From contig NZ_QVAI01000015.1 of assembly GCF_003427025.1 (NCBI RefSeq), positions 1 through 64,000 of the forward strand: DNA of 64,000 nucleotides, given 5' to 3'. The notes under the pieces are model-generated. The model saw nothing but the letters and a program-made list of their open reading frames with translations, was not told the origin of the DNA and made no database searches. Positions 1 through 12,744 of this stretch are shown piece after piece. Position numbers and translations under genes: made by a program. The stretch is from Jiangella endophytica (lineage in GTDB: Bacteria; Actinomycetota; Actinomycetes; Jiangellales; Jiangellaceae). Numbering within the stretch: position 1 is the stretch's first letter; every line of letters starts with the position of its first letter.

Positions 1-751
1 CGGTGTAGACGCCGATCAGCACGAGCGCGATCGCGGCGACGCCCAGCACCGACGGCGCGGTGAGGCGACCCTCGGCCTCGATCCGCGACAGCGCGAACAG
101 CAACCCGGCGACGCCCGGGCCGACGAGTGCGAGGCCGACGAGGTCGAGGCGAGGATGCGGTCCGCCCCGGCCGGGGGCGTCGGCGGGGAGGTGGCGGACC
201 GCGAGGGCGAAGGCGGCGAGCACGATCGGGATGTTCACCACGAAGAGCCATCGCCAGTCGGCGACCTGCAGGATCACTCCGCCGACGACGGGACCGGCCA
301 CCGGGCCGCTCGAGCCGACGATGCCCATGATGCCCATGACCCGGCCGATCCGGGCCGGTCCGGCGGCCCGCGCGAGCAGGGTCAGCATCAGCGGATCGAG
401 GATGCCGGCGCCGACCCCCTGCAACGCGCGGAAGGTGATGAGGGCCTCCAGGTTCCACGCGAGCGCCGAGGCGGCCGACCCCACGAAGAACACGGCCAAC
501 CCGATCAGCCACAGGCGCCGGCCCCCGATCCGGAGCACGGCCCAGGCGCCGACGGGGATCGTGACGGCGACCGCGAGGAGGTACACCGTCGAGGCCCAGC
601 CGGCCTGGGCGAGGCCGGTGCCGAGGTCGGCGGCGAGCGCCTCCATCGCCACCAGCACCATCGAGCCGTCCAGGATCCCCATGACGCCACCGAGCAGGAT
701 CACTCCGACGATCCGGCGAAGACTACGATCAGACTGGTCTACTAGACTCAT
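1..751 (-). CDS. DHA2-type MFS drug exporter (3' end outside window)
   Basis: This is a proton-driven multidrug exporter of the EmrB/QacA (DHA2, 14-TM) type. About 250 N-terminal residues are visible; the rest lies beyond base 1. The protein starts MSLVDQSDRSLRRIVG and runs straight into membrane helices. The antiporter motif C appears as SSGPVAGPVVGGVI, and the family's DWRWLFVVNIPI segment follows about 15 residues later. The ATG at 749-751 has no Shine-Dalgarno sequence and sits inside a palindrome, so the mRNA may be leaderless. The gene is divergent from the TetR gene at 821, which probably represses it. The substrate cannot be read from the sequence. Confidence 0.9.
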   Translation of the reverse strand, partial: MSLVDQSDRSLRRIVGVILLGGVMGILDGSMVLVAMEALAADLGTGLAQAGWASTVYLLAVAVTIPVGAWAVLRIGGRRLWLIGLAVFFVGSAASALAWNLEALITFRALQGVGAGILDPLMLTLLARAAGPARIGRVMGIMGIVGSSGPVAGPVVGGVILQVADWRWLFVVNIPIVLAAFALAVRHLPADAPGRGGPHPRLDLVGLALVGPGVAGLLFALSRIEAEGRLTAPSVLGVAAIALVLIGVYT

Positions 752-770
752 GAGTCTGTTTTAGCAGACT
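731..770. promoter_or_regulatory. Cluster of palindromes, likely TetR operators
   Basis: Three overlapping inverted repeats share the half-site GTCT/AGAC. They are GTCTA-C-TAGAC at 737-747, the perfect 14-mer AGACTCATGAGTCT at 744-757 (which contains the exporter start codon), and AGTCTG-N6-CAGACT at 753-770. Their place between the divergent exporter and TetR gene is typical of local autorepression. Binding itself is inferred. Confidence 0.6.
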
Positions 771-820
771 GGAATGAGCGGTCTGACAGTCGGCCGGTCG
801 GATCCAGGTAGCATCGACGT

Positions 821-1465
821 ATGGTCGAGGTCGGCGGCACGCGTGGCAGGATCGAGAAGCGCAGCGCCATCCTCGAGGCCGCGGCCGATGTCTTCGCGGC
901 GGAGGGCTTCGCGCTGGCGAGCGTCGACGACATCGCCGCCGCGGCCGGCGTGGCGAAGGCCACCGTCTACAGTCACTTCGGCGACAAGGAAGGCCTGCTG
1001 CGTGCGGTGCTGACGGTCGAGGCCGACCGTGCGGCGGAGTCCAATCTCGCCGCCATCGAGCGGCTGTTGCACGTCGAGGGCGACGTCGACGACGCCCTCC
1101 GCGACGTCGGCCGCCGCCTGGTCGACTGCTTCTGCGACCCCAAGGCACAGGCGTTGCGCCGGCTGGTGACCGGCGAGCTGGCTCGCTACCCCGACCTCGC
1201 CGACCTGCTGTTCGGCCGAACACCACAGCGGGTCCACCAGGCACTCGCCGACCGGCTCCTCGCGCTGTCCGTGCAGGGCCGCCTCGTCGTCGACGACCCG
1301 CTCACGGCGGCCGAGCACTTCGGCAGCCTGCTCACCGGCTCCATCGACGCTCGCTCCCGCCTGGGGTCGCGCCGCCTGCCCGACGCCGAGCTCGACGCGA
1401 TCGTCGAGTCCGGCGTGCGTGTCTTCCTCCGCGCCTACGGCGCGACCCCCGCCGCCGGTCGCTGA
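821..1465 (+). CDS. TetR/AcrR-family transcriptional regulator
   Basis: This is a cytoplasmic one-component repressor of 214 residues, the usual TetR size. The N-terminal DNA-binding domain (about residues 10-58) has the family pattern ILEAAADVFAAEGF followed by DDIAAAAGVAKATVYSHF. The C-terminal ligand domain resembles AefR-type TetR_C regions (LRRLVTGELARYPDLADLLF). It is divergent from the DHA2 exporter with 69 bp between them, and palindromes fill that gap. The simplest reading is a drug-responsive repressor of the exporter and of itself. The ligand is unknown. Confidence 0.9.
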   Translation: MVEVGGTRGRIEKRSAILEAAADVFAAEGFALASVDDIAAAAGVAKATVYSHFGDKEGLLRAVLTVEADRAAESNLAAIERLLHVEGDVDDALRDVGRRLVDCFCDPKAQALRRLVTGELARYPDLADLLFGRTPQRVHQALADRLLALSVQGRLVVDDPLTAAEHFGSLLTGSIDARSRLGSRRLPDAELDAIVESGVRVFLRAYGATPAAGR

Positions 1466-1493
1466 GAGCGGCGCCGACGTCCTACCTCGTGGT

Positions 1494-2488
1494 TCAGGCG
1501 GGCGAGGCGGTGTGCCGGCCCGGCCGGCCGCTGAGTCCGCCGGCGAACAGCTCACGCAGCTCGGCCTCCTCGCCGGGCGACGGACGCCAGCCGGTGGCGG
1601 CGGCGTTCTGCTCGACCTGCGCGACGGTGGTGGCTCCGGTGACGAGGCCGGAGACGCCGGCCTGGGCGAGCAGCCACCCGTAGGCGACATGGATCGGCGT
1701 GATCGCGCGGGCGGCCGCGAACTCGTGCAGCCGCTCGAGCGCGTCCCAGGGCGCCGATTCCAGCAGCTGCGGCTTGAACCGCGTGATCTTGCCCGACGAC
1801 GGCGCCTCGGTCCGCGTGTGCTTGCCGGTGAGCAGCCCGTTCTGCAGCGGGAAGTAGGCCAGAGCCCGAGCCCGTAGTGCCGGACGGCGGGCAGCAGGTC
1901 GTGCTCGGGCGCCCGCCACAGCAGGTTGTACTCGTGCTGCACGGAGACGAAGCCGGCCAACCGGCCCGCGCGGGCGACGTGGTGGGCGTCGGCGACCCGC
2001 CACGCCGGCAGGTTGGACGCGCCCGCGTACCGGATCTTGCCCTCGCGGACGAGGTCGTCGAGCACGCCGAGGGTCTCCTCGATCGGCGTCGCGGGGTCCG
2101 GCGTGTGGATCTGGTAGAGGTCGATCCAGTCCGTCCCCAGCCGGCGTAGCGAGTCCTCGACCGCCCGGCGCACGTTTCCGCGCGAGCCCAGCGTGCCGCG
2201 CGAGGCCGACCGGTCCCGGGTCCGGGTGCCGAACTTGGTCGAGATCACGGCCTCGTCCCGGCGTCCGAGCAGCGCCTTGCCGAGGATCGCCTCGCTGTCA
2301 CCGGGCTCGTCGCCGTAGGAGTCGGCGGTGTCGAAGGTCGTGACGCCGAGGTCGAGCGCGGTGCGGACGATGCTGTCGGCACCGGCCTGCCCGTCGGCGA
2401 CTCGGCCGGCCTTGCCGAAGGCGGCCGTGCCGATGGCCAGTTCGGAGACGACGAGTCCGGACGTGCCCACCTGCCGGTAGCCGCTCAC
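1494..2488 (-). pseudogene. Aldo/keto reductase, interrupted by a -1 frameshift
   Basis: This is an NADPH-dependent aldo/keto reductase of about 331 residues once the frame is repaired. The N-terminal part has GTSGLVVSELAIGTAAFG, FDTADSYG (Asp/Tyr), VISTKFG (Lys) and DLYQIHTPDP (His), the AKR catalytic tetrad. After YGLG the frame is lost near 1861-1868. The other frame continues ALAYFPLQNGLLTGKH to a normal C-terminus. One extra G in the GGG run would restore YGLGALAYFPL, so this is either a one-base deletion or a sequencing error. The GTG start (2486-2488) overlaps the stop of the upstream gene. The repaired protein has no Cys and no Met after the start. It is the last gene of the sulfur operon. 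Confidence 0.8.
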
Positions 2489-4269
2489 GGCGTCAGCACC
2501 ACCTTGCCGCGCACGTGGCCGTCCTCGCTGAGCCGATGCGCCTGTGCCACGTCGTCCAGCGGCAGTTCCGCGGCGATCTCCCAGGCGAATGCCTCCTTGG
2601 CGGCCAGTTCGACGGCGAGTGCGACACCTTCGTGCCGCAGCGCGCGCTCGTCCGGCGTCAGCCACCCGGGCCGGCTGCCGCTCCAGGCGCGGATGCCCAG
2701 CTCCTCGGCCCGCTCGACGGCGACGACGGTGCCGATGCGGGTGCGGTCGGCCACCAGCGCGAGCGACACGTCCAGCGCCTCGGCGGTGCCGGCGGCGTCG
2801 AGGACGACGTCGACACCGCCGGGTGCGGCGGCCCGGACGCGGTCGAGCAGTCCAGGACCGTACTCGACGGGGACGGCGCCCAGCTCGCGCAGCCGGTCGT
2901 GGTTGCCCGGCCGCGCCGTGGCGATCGCCCGCACGCCCCACTGACGGGCGAACTGCAGGGCGGCCTGTCCGACGGCGCCGGCTCCGGCGTGCACGAGCAG
3001 CGTCTCCTCGCCGACCAGCCGCAGCGACGTCAGCGCCTGGTAGGCGGTGCCGGTGGGGATCCCGACGGCGGCGGCCTGCGCCCAGCTGAGCTGCCGCGGC
3101 TTGAGCAGTGTCCGGGCCGGTGTCGTGACGACGTGCGAGGCATAGCTGCCCTGCGAGCCGACGACGATGACCTCGTCGCCCACGGAGCGTGCGCCGACGC
3201 CGTCGCCCACCGCGACCACGACGCCGGCCGCGTCCGAGCCCAGCCCGCGCGGCGCCTCCAGCGGCGTGGTCGACCGCTGACCGAGCCGGATCCTCCAGTC
3301 GACCGGGTTGACGCCGGCCGCGCGCACCTCCACCAGCACCTCGCCGGGGCCCGGGACCGGCCGCGGCAGGTCGACGACCTCCAGGACCTCGGGTCCGCCG
3401 TAAGCGCGGATGCGGACCGCCCGGGCGAGTCCGCGATCCGGTCCGGTCGCGACCGGGCGCTCCAGGTCGGCCGACCACGCCGACCACGACCCCACGAACA
3501 GCGCGGCGTCGATCCCCAGCGACTTCAGCACCAGTACCTGGTGAGCGGCCGCGACCCCGCCACCGCAGTAGGCGCCTACCGGGGTGCCGGCCCGGACGCC
3601 GAGCGCCTCGAACCGGGACCGCAGCGTCTCCTCGCCGGCCAGCCGGCCGGACTCGGACAGGTTGTGCCGGGTGCCGGCGTCCAGTGCGCCGGGAATGTGT
3701 CCCTGGCCCGGTTCACCGCCCTGATAGGCGGCGGTGCCACGGGAGTCGAGCAGCACGCCGGTCAGCGCCAGCTCCTGCGCCTCGTCGGCGGTCAGCGTCG
3801 GCAGCTGGCCCGGCCGGACGACCACCCGGCCGGGCGCCGGGGCCGCCGGCTCCTCGGTCGTCGTCGCCCCGCCGGAGTCGGCCCAGGCGCCGTACCCTCC
3901 GTCGAGCAACCGCACGTTCGTCAGGCCGGCCCACGTGAGCACCCACCAGGCTCGGCCGGCGGTCAGGCCGTTGCGGTTGTCGTAGACGACGACGGGCTGG
4001 TCGAGGTCGTCGATGCCCCAGCCGCGCAGCGTCTCCTGCAGGGCTTCCGGGGAGGGGAGTGGGCGGCGGCCCTCGGTGCCGCCGCCGGGGCCGGCGAGCT
4101 GCGCCTGCAGCTCGACGAAGTGCGCGCCGGGCAGGTGCCCGGCCTCGTACTCCGGCCGCAGGTCCGGGCCCGACGGCGAGAACCGGACGTCGAGGAGCAG
4201 AGGCGGGGGGCCGGCGGCGAGCTCGGCGGCGAGGTCCGCGGGGTCGACGAAGAACGGGCTGCTGGTCAC
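2485..4269 (-). CDS. Tandem rhodanese - quinone oxidoreductase fusion protein
   Basis: The protein has 594 residues and two enzyme modules. Residues 1-275 are a two-domain thiosulfate/3-mercaptopyruvate sulfurtransferase. The first domain (to about 135) is non-catalytic, with YDNRNG at the loop. The second carries the active-site loop AYCGGGVAAAH with Cys235 and ends in the family's RPVATGP tail. From about residue 283 a zinc-independent MDR/quinone oxidoreductase begins (AVRIRAYGGPEVLEVVDLP), with an NADPH loop AGAGAVG at 428-434. I saw no frameshift at the join. Cys235 is the only cysteine, and there is no Met beyond the start. It lies 11 bp after the monooxygenase gene. It may handle sulfane sulfur released by desulfonation, but the two-step role is inference. 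Confidence 0.85.
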   Translation of the reverse strand: MTSSPFFVDPADLAAELAAGPPPLLLDVRFSPSGPDLRPEYEAGHLPGAHFVELQAQLAGPGGGTEGRRPLPSPEALQETLRGWGIDDLDQPVVVYDNRNGLTAGRAWWVLTWAGLTNVRLLDGGYGAWADSGGATTTEEPAAPAPGRVVVRPGQLPTLTADEAQELALTGVLLDSRGTAAYQGGEPGQGHIPGALDAGTRHNLSESGRLAGEETLRSRFEALGVRAGTPVGAYCGGGVAAAHQVLVLKSLGIDAALFVGSWSAWSADLERPVATGPDRGLARAVRIRAYGGPEVLEVVDLPRPVPGPGEVLVEVRAAGVNPVDWRIRLGQRSTTPLEAPRGLGSDAAGVVVAVGDGVGARSVGDEVIVVGSQGSYASHVVTTPARTLLKPRQLSWAQAAAVGIPTGTAYQALTSLRLVGEETLLVHAGAGAVGQAALQFARQWGVRAIATARPGNHDRLRELGAVPVEYGPGLLDRVRAAAPGGVDVVLDAAGTAEALDVSLALVADRTRIGTVVAVERAEELGIRAWSGSRPGWLTPDERALRHEGVALAVELAAKEAFAWEIAAELPLDDVAQAHRLSEDGHVRGKVVLTP

Positions 4270-4280
4270 GGACGGCTCCT

Positions 4281-5645
4281 CTAGGACGCGACGGAGGCGA
4301 GGTCGGGCCGGGCGGCGTGGCGGTTCGCGGGTCGGCCGGGCAGGCCGAAGATCTCACGGAACGTCGTGGGTGCGCCGTACTCCTTCTTGAACAGGTCGCG
4401 CCGCTGCAGCTCGGGGACGACGAGGTCGACGAACGCGTCCAGCGGGCCGGGCAGGTAGGGCGGGAAGATGATGAAGCCGTCGGTGGTGCGTTCCTCGAAC
4501 TGTTCCTGGATGTAGTCGGCGACGTCGACGGCGTCGCCCACCACGGCCTGCTTGCCGTGGGTGCGCTTGAAGAACAGCGCCAGTTCGCGCAGCGTCGGCG
4601 ACGGGTCGTCGTAGGCCTCGCGGGCGCGGTCGAGGATGAGCCGGGCGCGGCCCTCCAGGCCGGCCAGCTCCGGGACGTCGTCGAGCGGGGTGTCGAGCCG
4701 GCGGCCGGTGAGGTCGGCGCCGAGCGCCTCCGACACCGGGCCGAGGGTCGCCTCGACCACGGTCAGCGACTGGATCTGGCGGAACTTCTCGTGCGCCTCG
4801 CGGGCGGTCCCGGCCACGTACACCGGCAGCCCGGCCACCGTCTGCTGGCCGTCCGGGAAGCCGGCCTCGGCGCGGCGCCGCTGCAGGTCGGCGTAGTAGG
4901 CCTTCGCCTTGGCGGTGTCCTGCAGCAGGATGAACCGGATGTCGGCGTGCTGGGCGCCGAACACGTGCGACTCCTCCGAGGAGCCCGCGTGCAGGATCGG
5001 GATGTGCCCCTGCGGAGGCCGGGCGATGTTGAGCGGCCCGGTGACGGCGAAGTGCTCGCCGCGGTGGTTGATCGCGTGGACGCGGTCCTCGTCGATGAAC
5101 AGCCCGCCGGTCTTGTCGCCGATGAGCGCGCCGTCCTCCCAGCTGTCCCAGAGGCCTTTGACGACGTCGACGAACTCGCCGGTCCACTCGTACCGCTTGA
5201 CCGAGTCCCAGTGCTCGTCACGGCCGAAGTTGCCGGCCGCCTCCTCGTTCTTGCCGGTGACGATGTTCCAGGCCAGCCGGCCCCGGCTCAGGTGGTCCAG
5301 CTGGGCGGTGGCCCGGGCCAGCGTGTAGGGCTCGGCATAGGTGGTGTTGACGGTGGTGACGATGCCGATGTGGGTCGAGAGCGCGGCGACGTACGCGGCC
5401 AGCGTGAGCGCCTCGGGCCGTAGCACCTCGTTGGGGCTCTCGTGCTGCGACGACGGCAGCCCGACGACGCGGTCGCCGATGAAGTAGAAGTCGAGCAGTC
5501 CGCGTTCGGCCGCCCGGACGGTGTCGGCGATGAAACCGGGGTCGAAGGTGCCGTGCGCGTTGGCCTCCGGGAGCCGCCAGCCGGCCGGGTGGATGCCGGT
5601 GGCCCAGATCGAGAAGCCGAGCTTGACGTGCTTCCTGTCCGTCAT
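4281..5645 (-). CDS. LLM-class flavin-dependent monooxygenase (NtaA/SnaA/DszA type)
   Basis: This is an FMNH2-dependent bacterial-luciferase-like monooxygenase of 454 residues, the size typical of the NtaA/DszA/DmoA branch. Visible features are an N-terminal KLGFSIWATGIHPAGWR, the WNIVTGKNEEAAGNFG region with RYEWTGEFVDVVKGLWDSWE, and AGSSEESHVFGAQHAD. Genes of this type beside SsuABC-like transporters usually cleave C-S bonds of sulfonates, sulfones or sulfides. The ATG at 5643-5645 follows a GGAGAA ribosome-binding site; longer in-frame versions look non-coding. The protein contains no Cys and no Met apart from the initiator. The exact substrate and the partner flavin reductase are not shown. 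Confidence 0.9.
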   Translation of the reverse strand: MTDRKHVKLGFSIWATGIHPAGWRLPEANAHGTFDPGFIADTVRAAERGLLDFYFIGDRVVGLPSSQHESPNEVLRPEALTLAAYVAALSTHIGIVTTVNTTYAEPYTLARATAQLDHLSRGRLAWNIVTGKNEEAAGNFGRDEHWDSVKRYEWTGEFVDVVKGLWDSWEDGALIGDKTGGLFIDEDRVHAINHRGEHFAVTGPLNIARPPQGHIPILHAGSSEESHVFGAQHADIRFILLQDTAKAKAYYADLQRRRAEAGFPDGQQTVAGLPVYVAGTAREAHEKFRQIQSLTVVEATLGPVSEALGADLTGRRLDTPLDDVPELAGLEGRARLILDRAREAYDDPSPTLRELALFFKRTHGKQAVVGDAVDVADYIQEQFEERTTDGFIIFPPYLPGPLDAFVDLVVPELQRRDLFKKEYGAPTTFREIFGLPGRPANRHAARPDLASVAS

Positions 5646-5662
5646 GGGTTCTCCGTTCGAGG

Positions 5663-6475
5663 TCAGACGTCCGCGCCGAGGTCGCGGCGGATGCGGTCCT
5701 GCAGGTCGGCCAGGACGTCGTCGCGCAGCGCGTCGTGCCGGCGCGGGCGGCCGGAGCCGCTGATGGTGTAGTCGCCGAGGATCCGGCCGGGCCGGGGCGC
5801 GAGGGTCACGATGCGGTCCGAGAGCGAGACGGCCTCGCCGACGTCGTGGGTCACCAGGATCGCCGTCGTCCCGAGCTCGGCCTGGACGTCGAGCAGCAGG
5901 TCGTGCAGCGACTCGCGGGTCCACACGTCCAGCGCCCCGAACGGCTCGTCCATGAGCAGGACGGCGGGTTCGTAGACCAGGGCCTGGGCGATGGCCACGC
6001 GCTGACGCATGCCGCCGGAGAGCTGGTCCGGGCGCTGGTGGGCGGCGTCGCCGAGCCCGACCCGCTCCAGCAGCCGCCGGGCGCGGTCCAGCCGCTCCTT
6101 CTTGCCGACGCCATGCAGCTCCAGAGGCAGCGCCACGTTCTGCAACGCCGTCCGCCACGGCAGCAGCCTGGTGTCCTGGGTGATGTAGCCGCGGTTGGGC
6201 AGGCCCGGCAGTCCGGACCCGTGCACCGTGATCTCGCCGCCGGTCGGTGTCAGCAGCCCGGCCAGGATGTTGAGCAGCGTCGACTTGCCGCAGCCGCTCT
6301 TGCCGACCAGCGAGACGAACTGCCCCGCCGGGATCTCCAGGCTGATCCCGCGCAACGCCTCGACGACGGCGGTGTCGGCGGCGAACGCGTGCCCGACGTC
6401 GCGAACGGAGATCGCCGGGTCCGGGGTGTCCGCACCGTCGACGCGGGGCGGGGAGCCGGTGGCGAGCGTCGTCAC
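5663..6475 (-). CDS. ABC transporter ATPase, nitrate/sulfonate/taurine type
   Basis: This is the ATP-hydrolysing subunit (270 residues) of an SsuB/TauB-like importer. Walker A is GKSGCGKST, the signature is LSGGMRQRVAIAQAL, Walker B is VLLMDEPFGALD, and the switch histidine is in LVTHDVGEA. TQDTRLLPWRTALQNVALPLEL is typical of the NrtD/SsuB family. The GTG start (6473-6475) overlaps the permease stop as GTGA, so the two are translationally coupled. Only one Cys and two internal Met are present. The operon context points to organosulfur uptake. Confidence 0.92.
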   Translation of the reverse strand: MTTLATGSPPRVDGADTPDPAISVRDVGHAFAADTAVVEALRGISLEIPAGQFVSLVGKSGCGKSTLLNILAGLLTPTGGEITVHGSGLPGLPNRGYITQDTRLLPWRTALQNVALPLELHGVGKKERLDRARRLLERVGLGDAAHQRPDQLSGGMRQRVAIAQALVYEPAVLLMDEPFGALDVWTRESLHDLLLDVQAELGTTAILVTHDVGEAVSLSDRIVTLAPRPGRILGDYTISGSGRPRRHDALRDDVLADLQDRIRRDLGADV

Positions 6476-7341
6476 TTCTTCTCCTTCGGCACCCAGGTGA
6501 GCAGCCGCGACTCCAGCGCCGCGGCCGCCAGTGTGAGGATCTGGACCAGTGCCGTCACCACCAGCACGGCGGCGAAGAGACTGGCCATGTCCAGCAGGTT
6601 GCTGGCGCGGATGAGCAGGAACCCGATGCCGCGGTTCGAGCCGAGGAACTCCGCGGTCACGACGGCGAGCGCGGTGGCCGGCAGCGCCAGTTTGAACGCC
6701 GACGCCAGGAACGGCACCGCAGCCCAGAGCCGGAACTTCACCAGCCGCTGCCAGGTGTTCGCCTCCAGCACCCGGGCCAGCTCGAGATAGCGCGAGTCGG
6801 TGTTGCGCAGTGCCTGGAACGAGGCGATGAAGACGATGAAGAACACCGTCAGGAAACCCATGAAGATCTTCGTCTCGATGCCGAACCCGAACCAGACGAT
6901 GAACACCGGGATCAGCGCGATCGTCGGGATGCCGTTGAAGACGATGATGTAGATCTCCGCGAACCGCCCGGTCCGCGGCAGCTCGGCGAACAGCACCGCC
7001 AGCCCGAACGCCACCACCGCGCCCAGCAGGAACCCGATGGCCAGCGCCGTCAGCGTGAACTGCAGGTGGAACACCAGGTGACCGGTGACGATCCAGTCCC
7101 ACAGCTGGCGCAGCACCTCCGAGGGCTTGCTCAGCAGCAGCGGGTCGATCCAGCGGCCGGACGAGACCTCCCAGGCGGCGAGGACCGCGCCGACGAAGCC
7201 GACGTGCAGCAGGACACGCAGGGCGAGCCCTCGACGACGGCGACGAGGCGGCTGCGGCGCCACGGCGGCAGGAGGCTCGGCGGCGGGCACTTCGGCCGGG
7301 CGGTTCTCGCTGACGACGACGGTGGACACGATGGTGGACAT
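6472..7341 (-). CDS. ABC transporter permease, sulfonate/taurine type
   Basis: This is the membrane subunit (289 residues) of an SsuC/TauC-like importer, with about six helices. A basic N-terminal stretch (RRRRRG) precedes the first helix. The cytoplasmic coupling loop lies around YLELARVLEANTWQRLVKFRLWAAVPF, the BPD_transp_1 EAA-like region. The ATG at 7339-7341 lies 11 bp after the binding-protein stop. It contains two internal Met and no Cys, which is low for a membrane protein. The partner genes are the ATPase at 5663 and the lipoprotein at 7353. Confidence 0.92.
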   Translation of the reverse strand: MSTIVSTVVVSENRPAEVPAAEPPAAVAPQPPRRRRRGLALRVLLHVGFVGAVLAAWEVSSGRWIDPLLLSKPSEVLRQLWDWIVTGHLVFHLQFTLTALAIGFLLGAVVAFGLAVLFAELPRTGRFAEIYIIVFNGIPTIALIPVFIVWFGFGIETKIFMGFLTVFFIVFIASFQALRNTDSRYLELARVLEANTWQRLVKFRLWAAVPFLASAFKLALPATALAVVTAEFLGSNRGIGFLLIRASNLLDMASLFAAVLVVTALVQILTLAAAALESRLLTWVPKEKK

Positions 7342-7352
7342 GGCGGCTCCCG

Positions 7353-8432
7353 TCACTCCGCGGGCAGGTACTCGTCGGTGTAGACCTCGTCGATCGGCAG
7401 CGGATCGGTGATGTTCCCGCTGGCGACCGCGAAGTCGATCTGCGCCTGGATGGCCTCCTCGGCGTGCCGGCTGTCCGGCGGGAGGTTCTCCTTGTTCACC
7501 TCGACGACGGTGCGGATGCGCTCGACGTCGAAGTCGGCGTACTGCTCCTCGGCGATGGCCAGGATGTCGTCGACGCTGTTCTCCACGACGAAGTCGGCGC
7601 CGCGCTGGTACGCCCGGAAGAACGCCTCCGCCAGCTCGCGGTTGTCCTGCGCCCAGTCGTCGTTGACGATCGTCTCCGCCGCCCGGGCGTTGGCGACCAG
7701 CGGCACCTCGTCGACCAGCTCTTGCGTGCTCAGCGCCTCGACGGCATCGCCGGACTCCACCAGCAGCCGGTTGTCCGGCGAGCTGGCCAGCCAGACCTGC
7801 ACCGAGCCGTCCTTGATGCCGGCGATCTTGTTGATGTTCTCCAACGGCGCCAGCTGGACGTCGGTCTCGGGGTCGAAGCCGAACCAGTCCGCGAGGTAGG
7901 CGCTGGCGCGCTCCCACAGTCCGCCGGCCGAGTTCGTCGCCCACAGCGCGTCGTCCCCGAGGACGGCGCCGCGCTCCTCGATCGGCCAGGTGGCGTACTC
8001 CTGCGGGTCGATGCCCTGGTCCTCCAGCCACGCGGTCGAGACGATGAGGCTCCAGTCGTTGGTGATCTGCACCGCCGCGGCCAGCTTGACGTTGCGCCCC
8101 TGCTCGACCGCCTGCGCCGTCGTCGACAACGACAGAAAACCGACGTTGACCTGGTCGTTGATCAGCGCCTGGAGGGTGTTGGGTGCGGTGTCGGTGATGT
8201 AGTTCTCGATCCGGACGCCCTCCTCCTCGAAGTAGCCGTTGGCGACGGCCATCGTGTAGGCGAGCTGACCGCCGGTGAAGTCGTCGGCCGAGGTGGCGAC
8301 CACGACGGTGCCGAGGTTGTCGCCGTCGTCGGCCGTCGCCTCATCGCTCGCGCACCCGGCCGCCCCGAGAACGGCCGCGGCCAGGAGGGCCGGGAGCGCC
8401 GGCCGGCGCCGGACGAGGGGTCGAAGAGTCAC
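7353..8432 (-). CDS. ABC transporter substrate-binding lipoprotein (SsuA/NMT1-like)
   Basis: This is a membrane-anchored periplasmic-type binding protein of 359 residues. It has a basic start, a hydrophobic core and the lipobox LGAAGC. The mature part resembles NMT1/SsuA proteins, with AVANGYFEEEGVRIE and INDQVNVGFLSLSTTAQAVEQG, where a ligand pocket forms between two lobes. The start is GTG at 8430-8432, preceded by GGAGG. The mature chain has one Met, and its only Cys is the lipidated one. As first structural gene of the operon, it sits about 150 nt downstream of a candidate leader ORF. The ligand is presumably an organosulfur compound. Confidence 0.9.
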   Translation of the reverse strand: MTLRPLVRRRPALPALLAAAVLGAAGCASDEATADDGDNLGTVVVATSADDFTGGQLAYTMAVANGYFEEEGVRIENYITDTAPNTLQALINDQVNVGFLSLSTTAQAVEQGRNVKLAAAVQITNDWSLIVSTAWLEDQGIDPQEYATWPIEERGAVLGDDALWATNSAGGLWERASAYLADWFGFDPETDVQLAPLENINKIAGIKDGSVQVWLASSPDNRLLVESGDAVEALSTQELVDEVPLVANARAAETIVNDDWAQDNRELAEAFFRAYQRGADFVVENSVDDILAIAEEQYADFDVERIRTVVEVNKENLPPDSRHAEEAIQAQIDFAVASGNITDPLPIDEVYTDEYLPAE

Positions 8433-8581
8433 GTGATCCTCCAGGTGAGGGGACGGCTCCGGGCAGCGTGCGGCGGCCGGCGCCGGGCAGGACGTCGGGA
8501 AGGGTGCGGGCAGGGGGCGCCCTCGGAACGGGCGCGAGCGACTCGTGCGGTGGCGGCGTGACGGGCGCGAACGGCGTCCGC
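8433..8581 (-). promoter_or_regulatory. C-rich leader region between leader ORF and sulfur operon
   Basis: Read on the minus strand, this untranslated stretch is rich in C and poor in A/T, with runs such as CGCCCCCTGCCCGCACCC. It ends in a GGAGG ribosome-binding site for the binding-protein gene. A C-rich region after a stalling ORF would suit Rho-dependent attenuation, but no simple U-tailed terminator is visible. The functional assignment is tentative. Confidence 0.35.
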
Positions 8582-8668
8582 TCAGGCCACCCGTCCCGGC
8601 GGACACAGCTGACCGGCGATGCGCATCAGGTCGACGTAGCGCCGTTGGGTCAGGTGGGAGTCGAACAC
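8582..8668 (-). CDS. Short leader peptide of cysteine/sulfur-operon type
   Basis: This 28-residue ORF is too short for ordinary gene finding. It starts GTG at 8666-8668, nine bases after AGGAAA, and ends TGA at 8582-8584. The core LTQRRYVDLMRIAGQLC matches, from memory, the short 'putative leader peptide' ORFs found ahead of sulfur-assimilation genes in Streptomyces and relatives, with a conserved R-Y/H-V-D-L-x-R segment and a late cysteine. Such ORFs are thought to sense cysteine-tRNA supply through ribosome stalling. Here it precedes the SsuA-like gene by about 150 nt of C-rich leader RNA. The family match is good; the mechanism here is inferred. Confidence 0.72.
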   Translation of the reverse strand: MFDSHLTQRRYVDLMRIAGQLCPPGRVA

Positions 8669-8691
8669 ACCAAGCAGTTTCCTATCAAAAC

Positions 8692-8709
8692 ACTAGGATT
8701 ACTAGGTAA
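8692..8709. repeat. Tandem 9-bp direct repeat upstream of the leader ORF
   Basis: ACTAGGATT at 8692-8700 is followed directly by ACTAGGTAA at 8701-8709. This AT-rich island stands out in the GC-rich surroundings. It lies 24 bp upstream of the leader start and so falls in the likely promoter. It could be a regulator site or part of the promoter itself. Confidence 0.4.
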
Positions 8710-8803
8710 TATCCATCATGTGAGACCCACGAGTTCGGCACGTGGACATCCGCGACCGTGGCCGCGTGGCGCTCCGCCTGCCGGGCCGCACCACACGGAA
8801 CGC

Positions 8804-8836
8804 GACACGGCCCCGCAACCTCTGCGGGGCCGTGTC
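8804..8836 (-). terminator. Hairpin terminator after the sugar-dehydrogenase-like gene
   Basis: GACACGGCCCCGC pairs with GCGGGGCCGTGTC around a short loop (8804-8836), a 13-bp perfect stem 14 bp past the stop codon at 8851. There is no strong U tract, as is common for terminators in high-GC actinomycetes. Confidence 0.7.
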
Positions 8837-8850
8837 GATGGGCTGGCCGG

Positions 8851-11166
8851 TCAGTTGTCGAGGAACCGGCGGTACTGCCTCAGGATCTCCTGCGCCTCCA
8901 GGTTGTCGTCGAAGAACATCAGCGCGTCCATCCGGCAGTTGCACGGATTGCGCTCGGCGCCGTTCTGCGGGTACGAGCCGCCGATCTTGATGCCACGGGG
9001 ATTGGTGGGCGAGGTGCCCGTGCCGTCGATCTGCCAGGGGTCGCCGGGGGTGGTGTAGAAGCCCTCGATCGGCCGGCCGTTGCGGTAGAGCGCCATCTCC
9101 CCGGTCGTGTAGTCGAACGTCGCGGCCAGGTGAACCCACTCGTCCTGGGGGAGGAGCTCGCGCCAGTCCTGCTCCGCGGCGAACGTCTGCGAGGCACCGG
9201 TGTCGATGCGCCGGCCGAGGGCGACGAGTCTCAGCTGCCCCTGGACGTCGATCAGCTCCAGCAGGGCACGGACCCCGTGACCGTCGGAGTTGCCGCTCAG
9301 GATGCCGGCGAGACCGATCGCGTTGTAGCCGGGGGTCGGGTTCTGGCCGTTCATCTTGAACCAGCCCATCACCGTGATGCCCTCGGCGCCGTTGAAGCGG
9401 CTCAGCGACTCCACGCCGTCGGCGTCGGCGGCGTACACGCCCGCCTTCCACGCCTGGCCGGTCGGCGACTCGGCGACGCTGCGCACCTGCAGGGCGTTGA
9501 GGCTGCCCGGGTACGCGCCGTCGTCGACCCGCATGTTCTCGCCACCGTTGACCAGGCTGATCAAGGTGCGCGACGCCGCCTGGTCCTCCTCCCGGGAGTC
9601 GTCGGCCGCGAACGGGTGCTCGAAGTCGTACGACGCGACGAGATCCTGCGCGATCGACGGGTGGACCTCCGACTGGACCGATCCGTACCGCATGCCCACC
9701 ACCCGCCAGATCATCCCGTTGGCCTTCGCCAGCAGGTAGAGGTTCTGCTCGGCGTCGGTGCCGAAGCGCAGGTCGACGCGTCCGTCGCCGACGAAGTCCG
9801 TCATCCGCATCCGGGTGCCGCTGGTGTCGTAGAGCGCGAGCTCATGCACCTGCGCCTCCCTCGACACGTCGTTGTCGTGGCCGCGGTCGTCGCGTCGCCC
9901 GGCGATGTCGGCGTAGTACACGCGGCCCTCGACCAGGTCGCCGAAGACGTACGTGCCGTACAGGCCGTGCAGGTCGCCGCGCTGCACGAACCCGCCGGAG
10001 ATGGCGTGCCCGGAGTCGGAGTTGCACGGCCAGTTGGCCGGCTTGTCGTGGTCGTACGAGGTCGCCGGGTACTCGTAGCCGGCGTCCTTCAGCTCCGGCG
10101 TCATCGGGTAGAGCCAGCACTGGTTCTCGTTGCGGTAGGCGTAGCGGCCCTCGATCACCGGCCACCCGAAGTTGTCTCCCGCGTCGACGGCGTAGACCGC
10201 CTCGATGGCGCGCTGGCCGATGTGCCCGAGGTACATGTCCTTGCGGTTGCGGCTGTCCCAGCTGAACCGGTGCGGGTCGCGCATACCGAGGGCGTAGATC
10301 TCGCCGATGGCGCCCGGTTCGCCGGCGAAGGGGTTCGACGCGGGGATGCCGTACCGGCCGTTGGGACCGTTCGTGCCCGCCGGGTCGATGCGCAGGATCT
10401 TGCCCGACGGCGTCGCGAGGTCCTGGGGCACGTCGCTGCTCACCCCGATGCCGCCGTCGCCGACGGCGAGGTAGAGCAGCCCGTAGTCCTCGTCGCCGCG
10501 CTGGGCGTGCGGGTTGAAGTCGATCTGCTGGATCGCGTGGATCTGACCCCCGAAGCGGAATCGGAAGATCTCCCGGCTGGTGCCGCTGAACGTGCCGGCC
10601 GCGGGGTCCGCGGCGGTCCACTCGGTGACCACGCTCGTCACGGAGGAGGAGGTCACCGGCTGGGACGGGTAGGTCAGCTCGCCCGGGGCGTCGGGCGTCT
10701 CGGTGTGGACGGTGTAGAACCTGCCGTTGTCCTCGAACTCGGGATGGAACGTCACGAACCCGAACCCGGAGCCGAGACCGCGCCAGGACAGGAAGTGCGG
10801 GAACCGCGCCGCGACGTCGAGGTAGAGCCGCGGCTCGCCGCCCTCCAGGAGGTACAGCGGGCCGTTGAGGTCCGGCACGTACATCCGGCCGGAGCCGTCG
10901 GGCACCTCGCCGAGGTAGTTGATGCGGTTGTGCCGCGAGCCGATCCGGACGTCCGTCACCGGCCCGTTGGGCGTCGACGGGGGGAGCTGGGCGTACTCCT
11001 CGAGGACCAGGCCGCGGGTGGAGGGCTTGATCGGCTGCGGGATCGGGTCGGTGATGGGGACGTCCGGGTCGGGTGCGCCGGCCGTGGCCGGCGGATCGAA
11101 GGGGGTGAGCGCCGCCGCGAGCAGGAAAGCCGTGACAGCCGCGAGCCATCGACGAGATCTGCGCAT
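8851..11166 (-). CDS. Secreted PQQ-type sugar-dehydrogenase-like protein with LamG domain
   Basis: The protein has 771 residues. A Sec signal peptide (RRSRRWLAAVTAFLLAAALT, cleaved near residue 29) is followed by a soluble-glucose-dehydrogenase-like beta-propeller (about 70-480). This carries GLLYLAVGDGGIG, GKILRIDP, YALGMRDPHRFSWD and GDNFGWPVIEGRY, all typical of the GSDH/HHIP family. A C-terminal concanavalin-like LamG domain (about 545-770; VMGWFKMNG, WVHLAATFDYTTGEMALYRNG) probably binds glycan. It may oxidise sugars outside the cell with PQQ; no PQQ biosynthesis genes are nearby. It lies 71 bp after livF on the same strand, so it may be the last gene of the LIV-type operon. Confidence 0.85.
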   Translation of the reverse strand: MRRSRRWLAAVTAFLLAAALTPFDPPATAGAPDPDVPITDPIPQPIKPSTRGLVLEEYAQLPPSTPNGPVTDVRIGSRHNRINYLGEVPDGSGRMYVPDLNGPLYLLEGGEPRLYLDVAARFPHFLSWRGLGSGFGFVTFHPEFEDNGRFYTVHTETPDAPGELTYPSQPVTSSSVTSVVTEWTAADPAAGTFSGTSREIFRFRFGGQIHAIQQIDFNPHAQRGDEDYGLLYLAVGDGGIGVSSDVPQDLATPSGKILRIDPAGTNGPNGRYGIPASNPFAGEPGAIGEIYALGMRDPHRFSWDSRNRKDMYLGHIGQRAIEAVYAVDAGDNFGWPVIEGRYAYRNENQCWLYPMTPELKDAGYEYPATSYDHDKPANWPCNSDSGHAISGGFVQRGDLHGLYGTYVFGDLVEGRVYYADIAGRRDDRGHDNDVSREAQVHELALYDTSGTRMRMTDFVGDGRVDLRFGTDAEQNLYLLAKANGMIWRVVGMRYGSVQSEVHPSIAQDLVASYDFEHPFAADDSREEDQAASRTLISLVNGGENMRVDDGAYPGSLNALQVRSVAESPTGQAWKAGVYAADADGVESLSRFNGAEGITVMGWFKMNGQNPTPGYNAIGLAGILSGNSDGHGVRALLELIDVQGQLRLVALGRRIDTGASQTFAAEQDWRELLPQDEWVHLAATFDYTTGEMALYRNGRPIEGFYTTPGDPWQIDGTGTSPTNPRGIKIGGSYPQNGAERNPCNCRMDALMFFDDNLEAQEILRQYRRFLDN

Positions 11167-11237
11167 GGGTCCTCGTCCCTACTGTCGGATGCGGATGGGA
11201 ACAGTGCTGCGTACTTCTCGGGGTGCGGTCGTGCCGT

Positions 11238-11978
11238 TCATCGGGACGCGGCGGGCCGGCCGCCGAGGTACAGCTCCGCGAGCTGGGGATCCTCCAGCAG
11301 TTCGGCGGCGGGGCCGTCGATGTGGACCCGGCCGAGGTCCAGCACGCAGCCCAGGTCGGCGGTCTGGAGCGCGCGGCGTGCGTTCTGCTCGACGAGCAGG
11401 ACGGCGGTTCCCGCGTCGCGCATCCGGATCACCTGCTCGAAGACGGACTCCGTGGCCTTGGGGTCGAGGCCCATCGACGGTTCGTCGAGGAGCACCACCC
11501 GCGGGCTGACCATCAGCGAACGGGCGAACTCGACCTGCTTCTGCTGTCCGCCCGACAGCGCACCGGCCAGGGCCTTCCACCGGTCGCCGACGACGGGGAA
11601 CAGGTCCCTGACGAGTCCGACGCGCTCGGCGATCACGGCGCTGTCCCGGACCGAGTAGGCGCCCAGCAGCACGTTCTCCTCGACCGTCATCTCCCTGAAC
11701 ACGCTGTGTCCTTGGAGCACGTGGGAGAGGCCGGCGGTCAGCATCTGCTGCGGTCCGTAGCCCGTCACGTCCTCGCCGCCGACCCGGATCGTGCCGGAAC
11801 GGGGCGCGAGCATCCCGCTGGCGACCTTGAGGACGGTGGACTTGCCCGCGCCGTTGGGGCCGACCAGGCAGACGACCGACCCGGCGGGCACCTTCACGGT
11901 CAGGCCGCGCAGCACCAGGGCAGCCCGGCCGTAGCCCGCCTCGATGTCGTCGAGCTCGAGCAGGTGTTCAGACGCCAA
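11238..11978 (-). CDS. livF: LIV-type ABC transporter ATPase, LivF
   Basis: This is the second ATPase of a branched-chain-amino-acid-type (HAAT) importer, 246 residues. Walker A is GPNGAGKST, the signature is LSGGQQKQVEFARSL, Walker B is VVLLDEPSMGLD, and the switch region is VLLVEQNARRAL, the LivF hallmark (EQN). The start overlaps the end of livG by 11 bp. The HAAT family also imports amides, urea and aromatic acids, so the substrate is open. It carries six internal Met and two Cys, a useful contrast with the sulfur operon's ATPase. Confidence 0.93.
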   Translation of the reverse strand: MASEHLLELDDIEAGYGRAALVLRGLTVKVPAGSVVCLVGPNGAGKSTVLKVASGMLAPRSGTIRVGGEDVTGYGPQQMLTAGLSHVLQGHSVFREMTVEENVLLGAYSVRDSAVIAERVGLVRDLFPVVGDRWKALAGALSGGQQKQVEFARSLMVSPRVVLLDEPSMGLDPKATESVFEQVIRMRDAGTAVLLVEQNARRALQTADLGCVLDLGRVHIDGPAAELLEDPQLAELYLGGRPAASR

Positions 11979-12744
11979 GGTAGGCCTCCAGGACTCGGGG
12001 GTCGTTCTGGACCACCGAAGGCGGGCCTTCGCTGATCCGGCGGCCGCGGTCGAAGACGACCACGTGGTCGGAGAGGCTCATGACGAGCTCCATGTTGTGC
12101 TCCACCACGATGAAGGTCTTGCCCTCGGCGTTGAGAGAGCGGACCAGCCCGGCGATCCGCTCGATGAGAGCCGGGTTCACGCCGCCGGCCGGCTCGTCGA
12201 GCATGATCGTGTCAGGGTCGGCCATCAGCACGCCCGCGAGCTCGAGCAGCTTCTGCTGTCCGTAGGACAGGTCCCGCGCGTCGGCGCGCTCGAGGTGCTC
12301 GATGCCGACCCGGGACAGCAGCTCGCGCGCCCGCGCGACGTCGTCGCGGTGGTGGGCGGAGGCGAGCAGCCGGGTCCTGCTCGGTGGCCGGACCGCGGCC
12401 AGCACGTTCTCCAGCACGGTCATCCGCGGGAAGATCCGGCACAGCTGGAAGCTGCGTCCGATGCCGGCCCGGGCGATGCGGTGCGCGGCTTTGCCGGTGA
12501 TGTCGGCGCCGTCGTACGTGACCGTCCCGCTGTCGGGCTTGATCATCCCGGTGACGCAGTTGAAGAACGTCGTCTTCCCCGAGCCGTTGGGGCCGATCAG
12601 CGCGTTGACCTTGCCGTGGTGGAACGAGACCGTGGCGTCGTCGACGGCACGGACACCGCCGAACGCCTTCGACAGGCCCGTGGCGGCCAGCCCGATCCGT
12701 GCCGACTCCCGCTGCTCGGCCGGCTGCTCATGGGTGCTGGTCAT
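11968..12744 (-). CDS. livG: LIV-type ABC transporter ATPase, LivG
   Basis: This is the first ATPase of the HAAT importer, 258 residues. Walker A is GPNGSGKTT, the signature LSYGQQKLLELAGVL has the LivG-type LSYG, and Walker B is TIMLDEPAGGVNP. The C-terminus RVLEAYLGV is the usual LivG ending. The start overlaps the livM stop by four bases (12741-12744), indicating coupling. It works with LivF on the LivH/LivM membrane pair. Confidence 0.93.
   Translation of the reverse strand: MTSTHEQPAEQRESARIGLAATGLSKAFGGVRAVDDATVSFHHGKVNALIGPNGSGKTTFFNCVTGMIKPDSGTVTYDGADITGKAAHRIARAGIGRSFQLCRIFPRMTVLENVLAAVRPPSRTRLLASAHHRDDVARARELLSRVGIEHLERADARDLSYGQQKLLELAGVLMADPDTIMLDEPAGGVNPALIERIAGLVRSLNAEGKTFIVVEHNMELVMSLSDHVVVFDRGRRISEGPPSVVQNDPRVLEAYLGV

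Follow-up and report, generated by a model that had tools for sequence, protein, structure and literature searches.

We analysed a 64,000-nucleotide stretch of the genome of the soil actinobacterium Jiangella endophytica, called here the window, in which a six-gene operon runs on the minus strand from 8432 to 1494 and encodes the substrate-binding protein, permease and ATPase of an ABC transporter, a monooxygenase dependent on flavin mononucleotide (FMN), a fusion of a sulfurtransferase to an MDR protein, and an aldo/keto reductase (Table 1). The products of this operon are almost free of Cys and Met, a composition that is due to selection for sulfur economy, and a leader peptide open reading frame (ORF) that was absent from the first-pass annotation of this DNA stands just upstream.

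Sulfur residues in the operon and in the genome

All counts given here exclude the initiator Met. Between them the six products have 2,291 residues, of which 3 are Cys and 5 are Met (0.35%), divided (Cys/Met) as 1/1 in the substrate-binding protein, 0/2 in the permease, 1/2 in the ATPase, 0/0 in the monooxygenase, 1/0 in the fusion and 0/0 in the reductase read across its frameshift. The first-pass annotation, which had put the total at about 5 Met and 3 Cys in about 2,300 residues, with none in the monooxygenase and the repaired reductase, a single Cys (Cys235) in the fusion and 8 sulfur residues in a nearby LivF ATPase, agrees with our recount in each respect. Five of the eight residues lie in functional motifs, namely the lipobox Cys of the substrate-binding protein, Cys62 (Walker A), Met156 (signature motif) and Met175 (Walker B) of the ATPase, and Cys235 of the fusion, which lies in CGGGV; these are identical in the two relatives described below.

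For comparison we sampled 2.37 Mb (30%) of the 7.85 Mb genome, with genes taken from our own codon-based gene caller. Pooled Cys+Met in this sample is 1.85% (Cys 0.57, Met 1.29; 1,752 proteins of at least 150 residues), and at that rate a count like the operon's would arise by chance with a probability of about 1e-10. Among 180 multi-gene operons with 1,000 residues or more this one ranks lowest, and it is also lowest among the 156 left once contigs picked for luciferase clusters are excluded. Met and Cys are the only residues clearly depleted, at 0.17 and 0.23 times the genome level, with all other residues between 0.89 and 1.33 times. When the six proteins are ranked singly, the placing in the lowest tail that would be expected from the first-pass annotation holds for the monooxygenase, the fusion and the reductase, each within the lowest 2.1% of sampled proteins, but not for the three ABC subunits, which lie outside the extreme tail.

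The trait is not confined to this locus. Four of the five next-lowest operons in the sample also scavenge organosulfur compounds, encoding SfnB-type oxidoreductases, SsuD-like or NtaA/DmoA monooxygenases or a sulfurtransferase together with ABC transporter genes, and it therefore follows function rather than locus: low Cys+Met is a trait of an operon class. The earlier remark that sulfur sparing extends over a whole operon, with a cytoplasmic reductase among its products, is thus true but does not set this operon apart, given these four others and a published Rhodococcus case (PMC8557817). Two further operons with low Cys+Met (C45:76300-80077, 0.57%, and C56:17907-21688, 0.72%) have no obvious sulfur genes.

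Table 1. Positions of the operon, its leader and related features (window coordinates unless prefixed)
Feature	Positions	Strand	Basis or remark
Substrate-binding lipoprotein, NMT1/SsuA-like, 359 aa	7353..8432	-	PF13379, PF09084; TIGR01728 below cut-off
ABC permease, SsuC/TauC-like, 289 aa	6472..7341	-	PF00528; best NCBIfam SsuC, below cut-off
ABC ATPase, TauB/SsuB-like, 270 aa	5663..6475	-	PF00005; best NCBIfam TauB, below cut-off
NtaA/DmoA-family FMN-dependent monooxygenase, 454 aa	4281..5645	-	TIGR03860
Fusion of double-rhodanese sulfurtransferase and quinone-oxidoreductase-like MDR protein, 594 aa	2485..4269	-	PF00581 (two copies), PF08240, PF13602, PF00107
Aldo/keto reductase, about 331 aa read across frameshift	1494..2488	-	PF00248 on both pieces
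Leader peptide ORF, 28 codons, VFDSHLTQRRYVDLMRIAGQLCPPGRVA	8582..8668	-	Direct reading; 149 nt before the substrate-binding protein gene
UGU Cys codon of leader	8603..8605	-	TGT here and in nearly all homologous leaders
C-rich spacer, leader to first gene (74 C and 44 G in 149 nt)	8433..8581	-	Candidate attenuation region
TetR/AefR-like regulator	821..1465	+	PF00440, PF14246; adjoins operon on opposite strand; role in operon conjectural
Next-lowest organosulfur operons of the genome	C16:395-10528; C19:54-7862; C19:51703-59429; C3:13-11217		

The monooxygenase passes the NtaA/DmoA model TIGR03860 with 415.2 bits (cut-off 279.7), and its nearest solved structures in a PDB search are YtnJ, MoxC, nitrilotriacetate monooxygenase and DszA. 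With the SsuD model TIGR03565 it scores 45.8 bits, under the cut-off of 518.2, and the substrate-binding protein scores 30.3 bits with the SsuA model TIGR01728, under the cut-off of 163.5; judged by these two models, the operon would fall outside the Ssu alkanesulfonate system. A PDB search with the substrate-binding protein gave no match, and so no clue to the substrate. In the J. endophytica assembly a frameshift near 1863 interrupts the reductase gene; it may be either an assembly error or recent decay.

The same operon is found in a sister species (the genus-level relative G011), in which the reductase is intact and likewise has neither Cys nor Met, and in Virgisporangium aurantiacum (L131) the gene set is the same except that separate genes encode the two halves of the fusion. 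The fusion is present in two of the 12 genomes of the genus, and the operon is therefore accessory. Directly upstream of the leader, G011 has a flavin reductase gene whose product lacks Cys and Met (L243 6784-7338); at this place the window has no counterpart of it but a long unrelated gene (8851-11166).

Homologues inside and outside sulfur operons

From public genomes we took 79 monooxygenase homologues for comparison, 40 of them in a sulfur context, taken as SsuABC/TauABC-like, SBP_bac_5-like, SfnB or SsuD neighbours assigned automatically by gene similarity, and 39 in other contexts. Homologues outside sulfur operons, which ought to be equally low if context did not matter, are not: the median Cys+Met is 0.68% in sulfur contexts versus 2.54% elsewhere (Mann-Whitney p=5e-6). 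The effect of context persists in phylogenetic regression (PGLS, p=0.004), to which GC content makes no contribution (p=0.97), and 15 independent contrast pairs give p=0.04 by the Wilcoxon test.

Substitutions tell a similar story. Among phylogenetically independent sister pairs, Cys or Met is involved in 28 of 1,710 substitutions in sulfur contexts and in 161 of 1,869 elsewhere (1.6% versus 8.6%), a five-fold deficit that still gives p=5e-10 when the rate elsewhere is halved, as would be expected if only gains of Cys or Met were free. Between the operons of J. endophytica and G011 none of the 209 differences involves either residue, and between those of J. endophytica and Virgisporangium 4 of 776 do. 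A genus-level control, the genes around a free-standing sulfurtransferase, has 2.2% of its substitutions at Cys or Met compared to 0 in the operon, though this lends weak support, being narrow and itself sulfur-poor, with some operon genes counted twice. The specificity for Met and Cys together with the five-fold deficit supports the suggestion, made in the first-pass annotation, that the operon shows the sparing composition of proteins made during sulfur starvation.

Beside one of the homologues, in Sphingobium (L181 9511-12078), lies a gene with a predicted product of 855 residues that has no Cys or Met besides the initiator and resembles an outer-membrane receptor at its N-terminus, which suggests that the same sulfur economy may operate in proteobacteria.

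Leader peptides and their fixed UGU codon

The leader ORF is short and conserved, being found in G011 as VFDSLLTQRRYVDLMRVAGQLCPQGRVA, and lies upstream of sulfur genes with a Cys codon near its end, as cysteine-responsive attenuators do. Such leaders occur four times in the genome sample: before this operon, before the SfnB operon of C19, before an M14 carboxypeptidase gene of C34 and before a symporter-like gene of C1, all of them likely sulfur-acquisition genes. Those of C19 and C1 pass the NF042934 model ("putative leader peptide") with 30.2 and 30.9 bits, respectively, and a Pfam search of the leaders gave no match. Sulfur-poor products are encoded behind these leaders by both full operons and by the gene for the secreted peptidase, and low Cys+Met and the leader recur in other sulfur-acquisition operons of the genome. 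The carboxypeptidase (C34:281408-286907, L261) has 3 Cys+Met in 897 residues, making it the third lowest of the 1,752 proteins by binomial tail; the three genes after it look like a MetNIQ methionine importer, and the locus is possibly an operon for scavenging extracellular sulfur amino acids. The C1 leader (C1:537572) is kept in most genomes of the genus, ahead of the symporter-like gene, which is possibly a cystine importer. Two matches of a broader leader pattern, in C34 and C45, were rejected as leaders since the pattern fell in coding sequence.

Leaders of the same type precede sulfur genes in Nonomuraea, Streptosporangium and Streptomyces, and in other genomes of the class they stand before what look like SsuD, TauD, CysH and FMN reductase genes. 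They share a further property, as the Cys codons in all ten leaders first compared were TGT, a codon that makes up 8.2% of Cys codons in the J. endophytica genome. The leader pattern ending in TGY has matches in 122 of 395 genomes of the class (about 230 matches, summed by hand), and the version ending in TGC has one match in the same 395 genomes. In a subset of 61 distinct leaders the last Cys codon is TGT in 60, whereas the other in-frame Cys codons are TGC in 11 of 11 cases (Fisher p=4e-12). The rest of the leader keeps to the usual GC-rich choice at synonymous positions, and the bases adjoining the UGU codon vary; because they do, the constraint would seem to act on the codon rather than on a motif, a reading that is favoured but not proven. 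Tentatively, and at a little under even odds in our judgement, these leaders may read cysteine supply through one specially chosen UGU codon and form a single regulon with the sulfur-stripped proteins as its output. If so, reading of the codon by wobble would let a single Cys position respond sensitively to the charging of Cys-tRNA. A text search of the literature found no description of a fixed UGU codon (Canestrari et al. 2020 itself lying outside its coverage), and the observation may be new.

An Rfam search of window positions 1-12000, including the spacer between leader and first gene, gave no family match. Upstream of the C19 leader (C19:7964-8120, L075) lies a perfect palindrome, CCTACTG-ATC-CAGTAGG, and the window has a related but imperfect element, CCTAGTAATCCTAGTG...TAGG, at 8669-8725; the palindromic element is possibly a regulator site.

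Sulfur economy and its alternatives

These results are best explained by an operon for the uptake of organosulfur compounds that selection has stripped of sulfur and whose expression is coupled to cysteine through the leader, a reading to which we assign a probability of about 0.83. The operon would import an organosulfur compound through the ABC transporter and break it down oxidatively as a sulfur source, with FMN-dependent cleavage of a C-S bond by the monooxygenase. The sulfur released would probably be handled by the sulfurtransferase half of the fusion, and the carbonyl product probably by the MDR half and the aldo/keto reductase. Since the proteins would be needed when Met and Cys are scarcest, selection has removed nearly every one of them, and those retained are mainly parts of functional motifs (lipobox, ABC motifs and the sulfurtransferase active site). 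The operon would be induced by sulfur limitation, and its expression is most likely tied to cysteine supply through the leader peptide; by analogy with the leader family, when Cys-tRNA is short ribosomes would stall at the UGU codon and the downstream genes would be expressed.

Several points weigh against this. The ABC subunits are individually only moderately low in Cys+Met (substrate-binding protein at the 7.5th percentile, permease at the 10.7th, ATPase at the 21.8th). Just 9 of the 15 independent contrast pairs go in the expected direction, and therefore much of the context effect lies between clades. The automatic context calls err both ways, as for the Sphingobium locus, which was scored "other" though it lies beside a TauD-like gene, and such errors should mostly weaken the contrast. 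The window leader falls just under the NF042934 cut-off (26.3 bits compared to 27) and scores 27.2 bits with the NF042933 model ("Cys-rich leader peptide"; cut-off 45). A single-sequence minimum free energy fold of the spacer, made without comparison, demonstrated neither a terminator nor an alternative RNA structure.

It is possible to suppose that the low Cys+Met is simply inherited from the protein families concerned (luciferase-like barrels, ABC subunits and reductases) and unrelated to sulfur economy. The luciferase-like proteins of the sample do have a low median of 0.97%, in a set enriched in sulfur clusters, and much of the signal between homologues is phylogenetic. However, the monooxygenase, the fusion and the reductase are each the lowest or tied lowest of their own family in the genome sample, Cys+Met rises to 2.5-4% in homologues of this monooxygenase from other contexts, and the trait is common to several unrelated protein families within one operon. 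The context, phylogenetic and substitution comparisons among homologues largely refute this explanation, and we consider it improbable. Slightly less probable still is a chemical cause, in which Met and Cys are avoided since flavin monooxygenases leak peroxide that oxidises them. Both residues oxidise easily and the operon has, by family assignment, an O2-using FMN enzyme, but Cys+Met is normal in members of the monooxygenase family from other contexts, whose flavin/O2 chemistry is presumably the same, and there is no depletion of other residues prone to oxidation (Trp 1.20, His 1.01 and Tyr 0.89 times the genome level). The transporter subunits are affected too, as is the secreted peptidase encoded behind a leader of this family.

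Base composition or recent horizontal transfer, rather than selection, might also be invoked, given that the operon is accessory and that Met (ATG) is generally reduced in GC-rich genomes. Here the pattern among residues already contradicts the proposal, as residues with AT-rich codons are raised (Lys 1.33, Asn 1.23 and Ile 1.19 times), Cys has a GC-rich codon available, and GC content has no effect in the phylogenetic regression; we give this explanation hardly any credence. Selection for sulfur economy accounts best for the composition of the operon.

Sulfate-starvation-induced proteins of Escherichia coli and Pseudomonas are sulfur-sparing. In Rhodococcus qingshengii IGTS8 grown on dibenzothiophene, DszA has 0 Cys and 5 Met and DszB 1 Cys and 0 Met, with SfnG, TauD and MetY similarly low (PMC8557817). 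The operon described here resembles that case in that proteins for organosulfur acquisition have very few Cys and Met, and differs in that a complete six-gene operon and several sister operons are quantified against the genome, and in that its induction is a prediction. Like the SsuEADCB and TauABCD sulfonate operons it has a similar type of ABC transporter beside an FMN-dependent monooxygenase; unlike them, its monooxygenase is of the NtaA/DmoA rather than the SsuD family, its substrate-binding protein is below the SsuA cut-off, and it adds the sulfurtransferase-MDR fusion and the aldo/keto reductase, with no flavin reductase called within it.

Cysteine-responsive attenuators have been reported in mycobacteria (Canestrari et al. 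2020, as cited in PMC9094748), and candidate cys leaders have been described (PMC1262725). With the actinobacterial Cys-rich leaders (NF042933, NF042934) the window leader shares a short ORF with a Cys codon close to its end, a place ahead of sulfur genes and the core R-x-[HY]-V-D-L-x-R; it differs in having a single Cys codon rather than a run, with UGU nearly invariant. Both sulfur-sparing proteins and cysteine leader peptides are thus already known, and the locus is an unusually complete case of the former tied to a leader resembling members of the latter.

As a natural example of a nutrient shaping the amino-acid make-up of the very proteins that acquire it, the operon is unusually clean, and homologous enzymes inside and outside sulfur operons provide a direct, quantitative test of selection on elemental cost. 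Independently of composition, the leader peptides mark sulfur-responsive genes at the sequence level, and because their UGU codon is fixed, how a single codon senses amino-acid supply can be tested directly.

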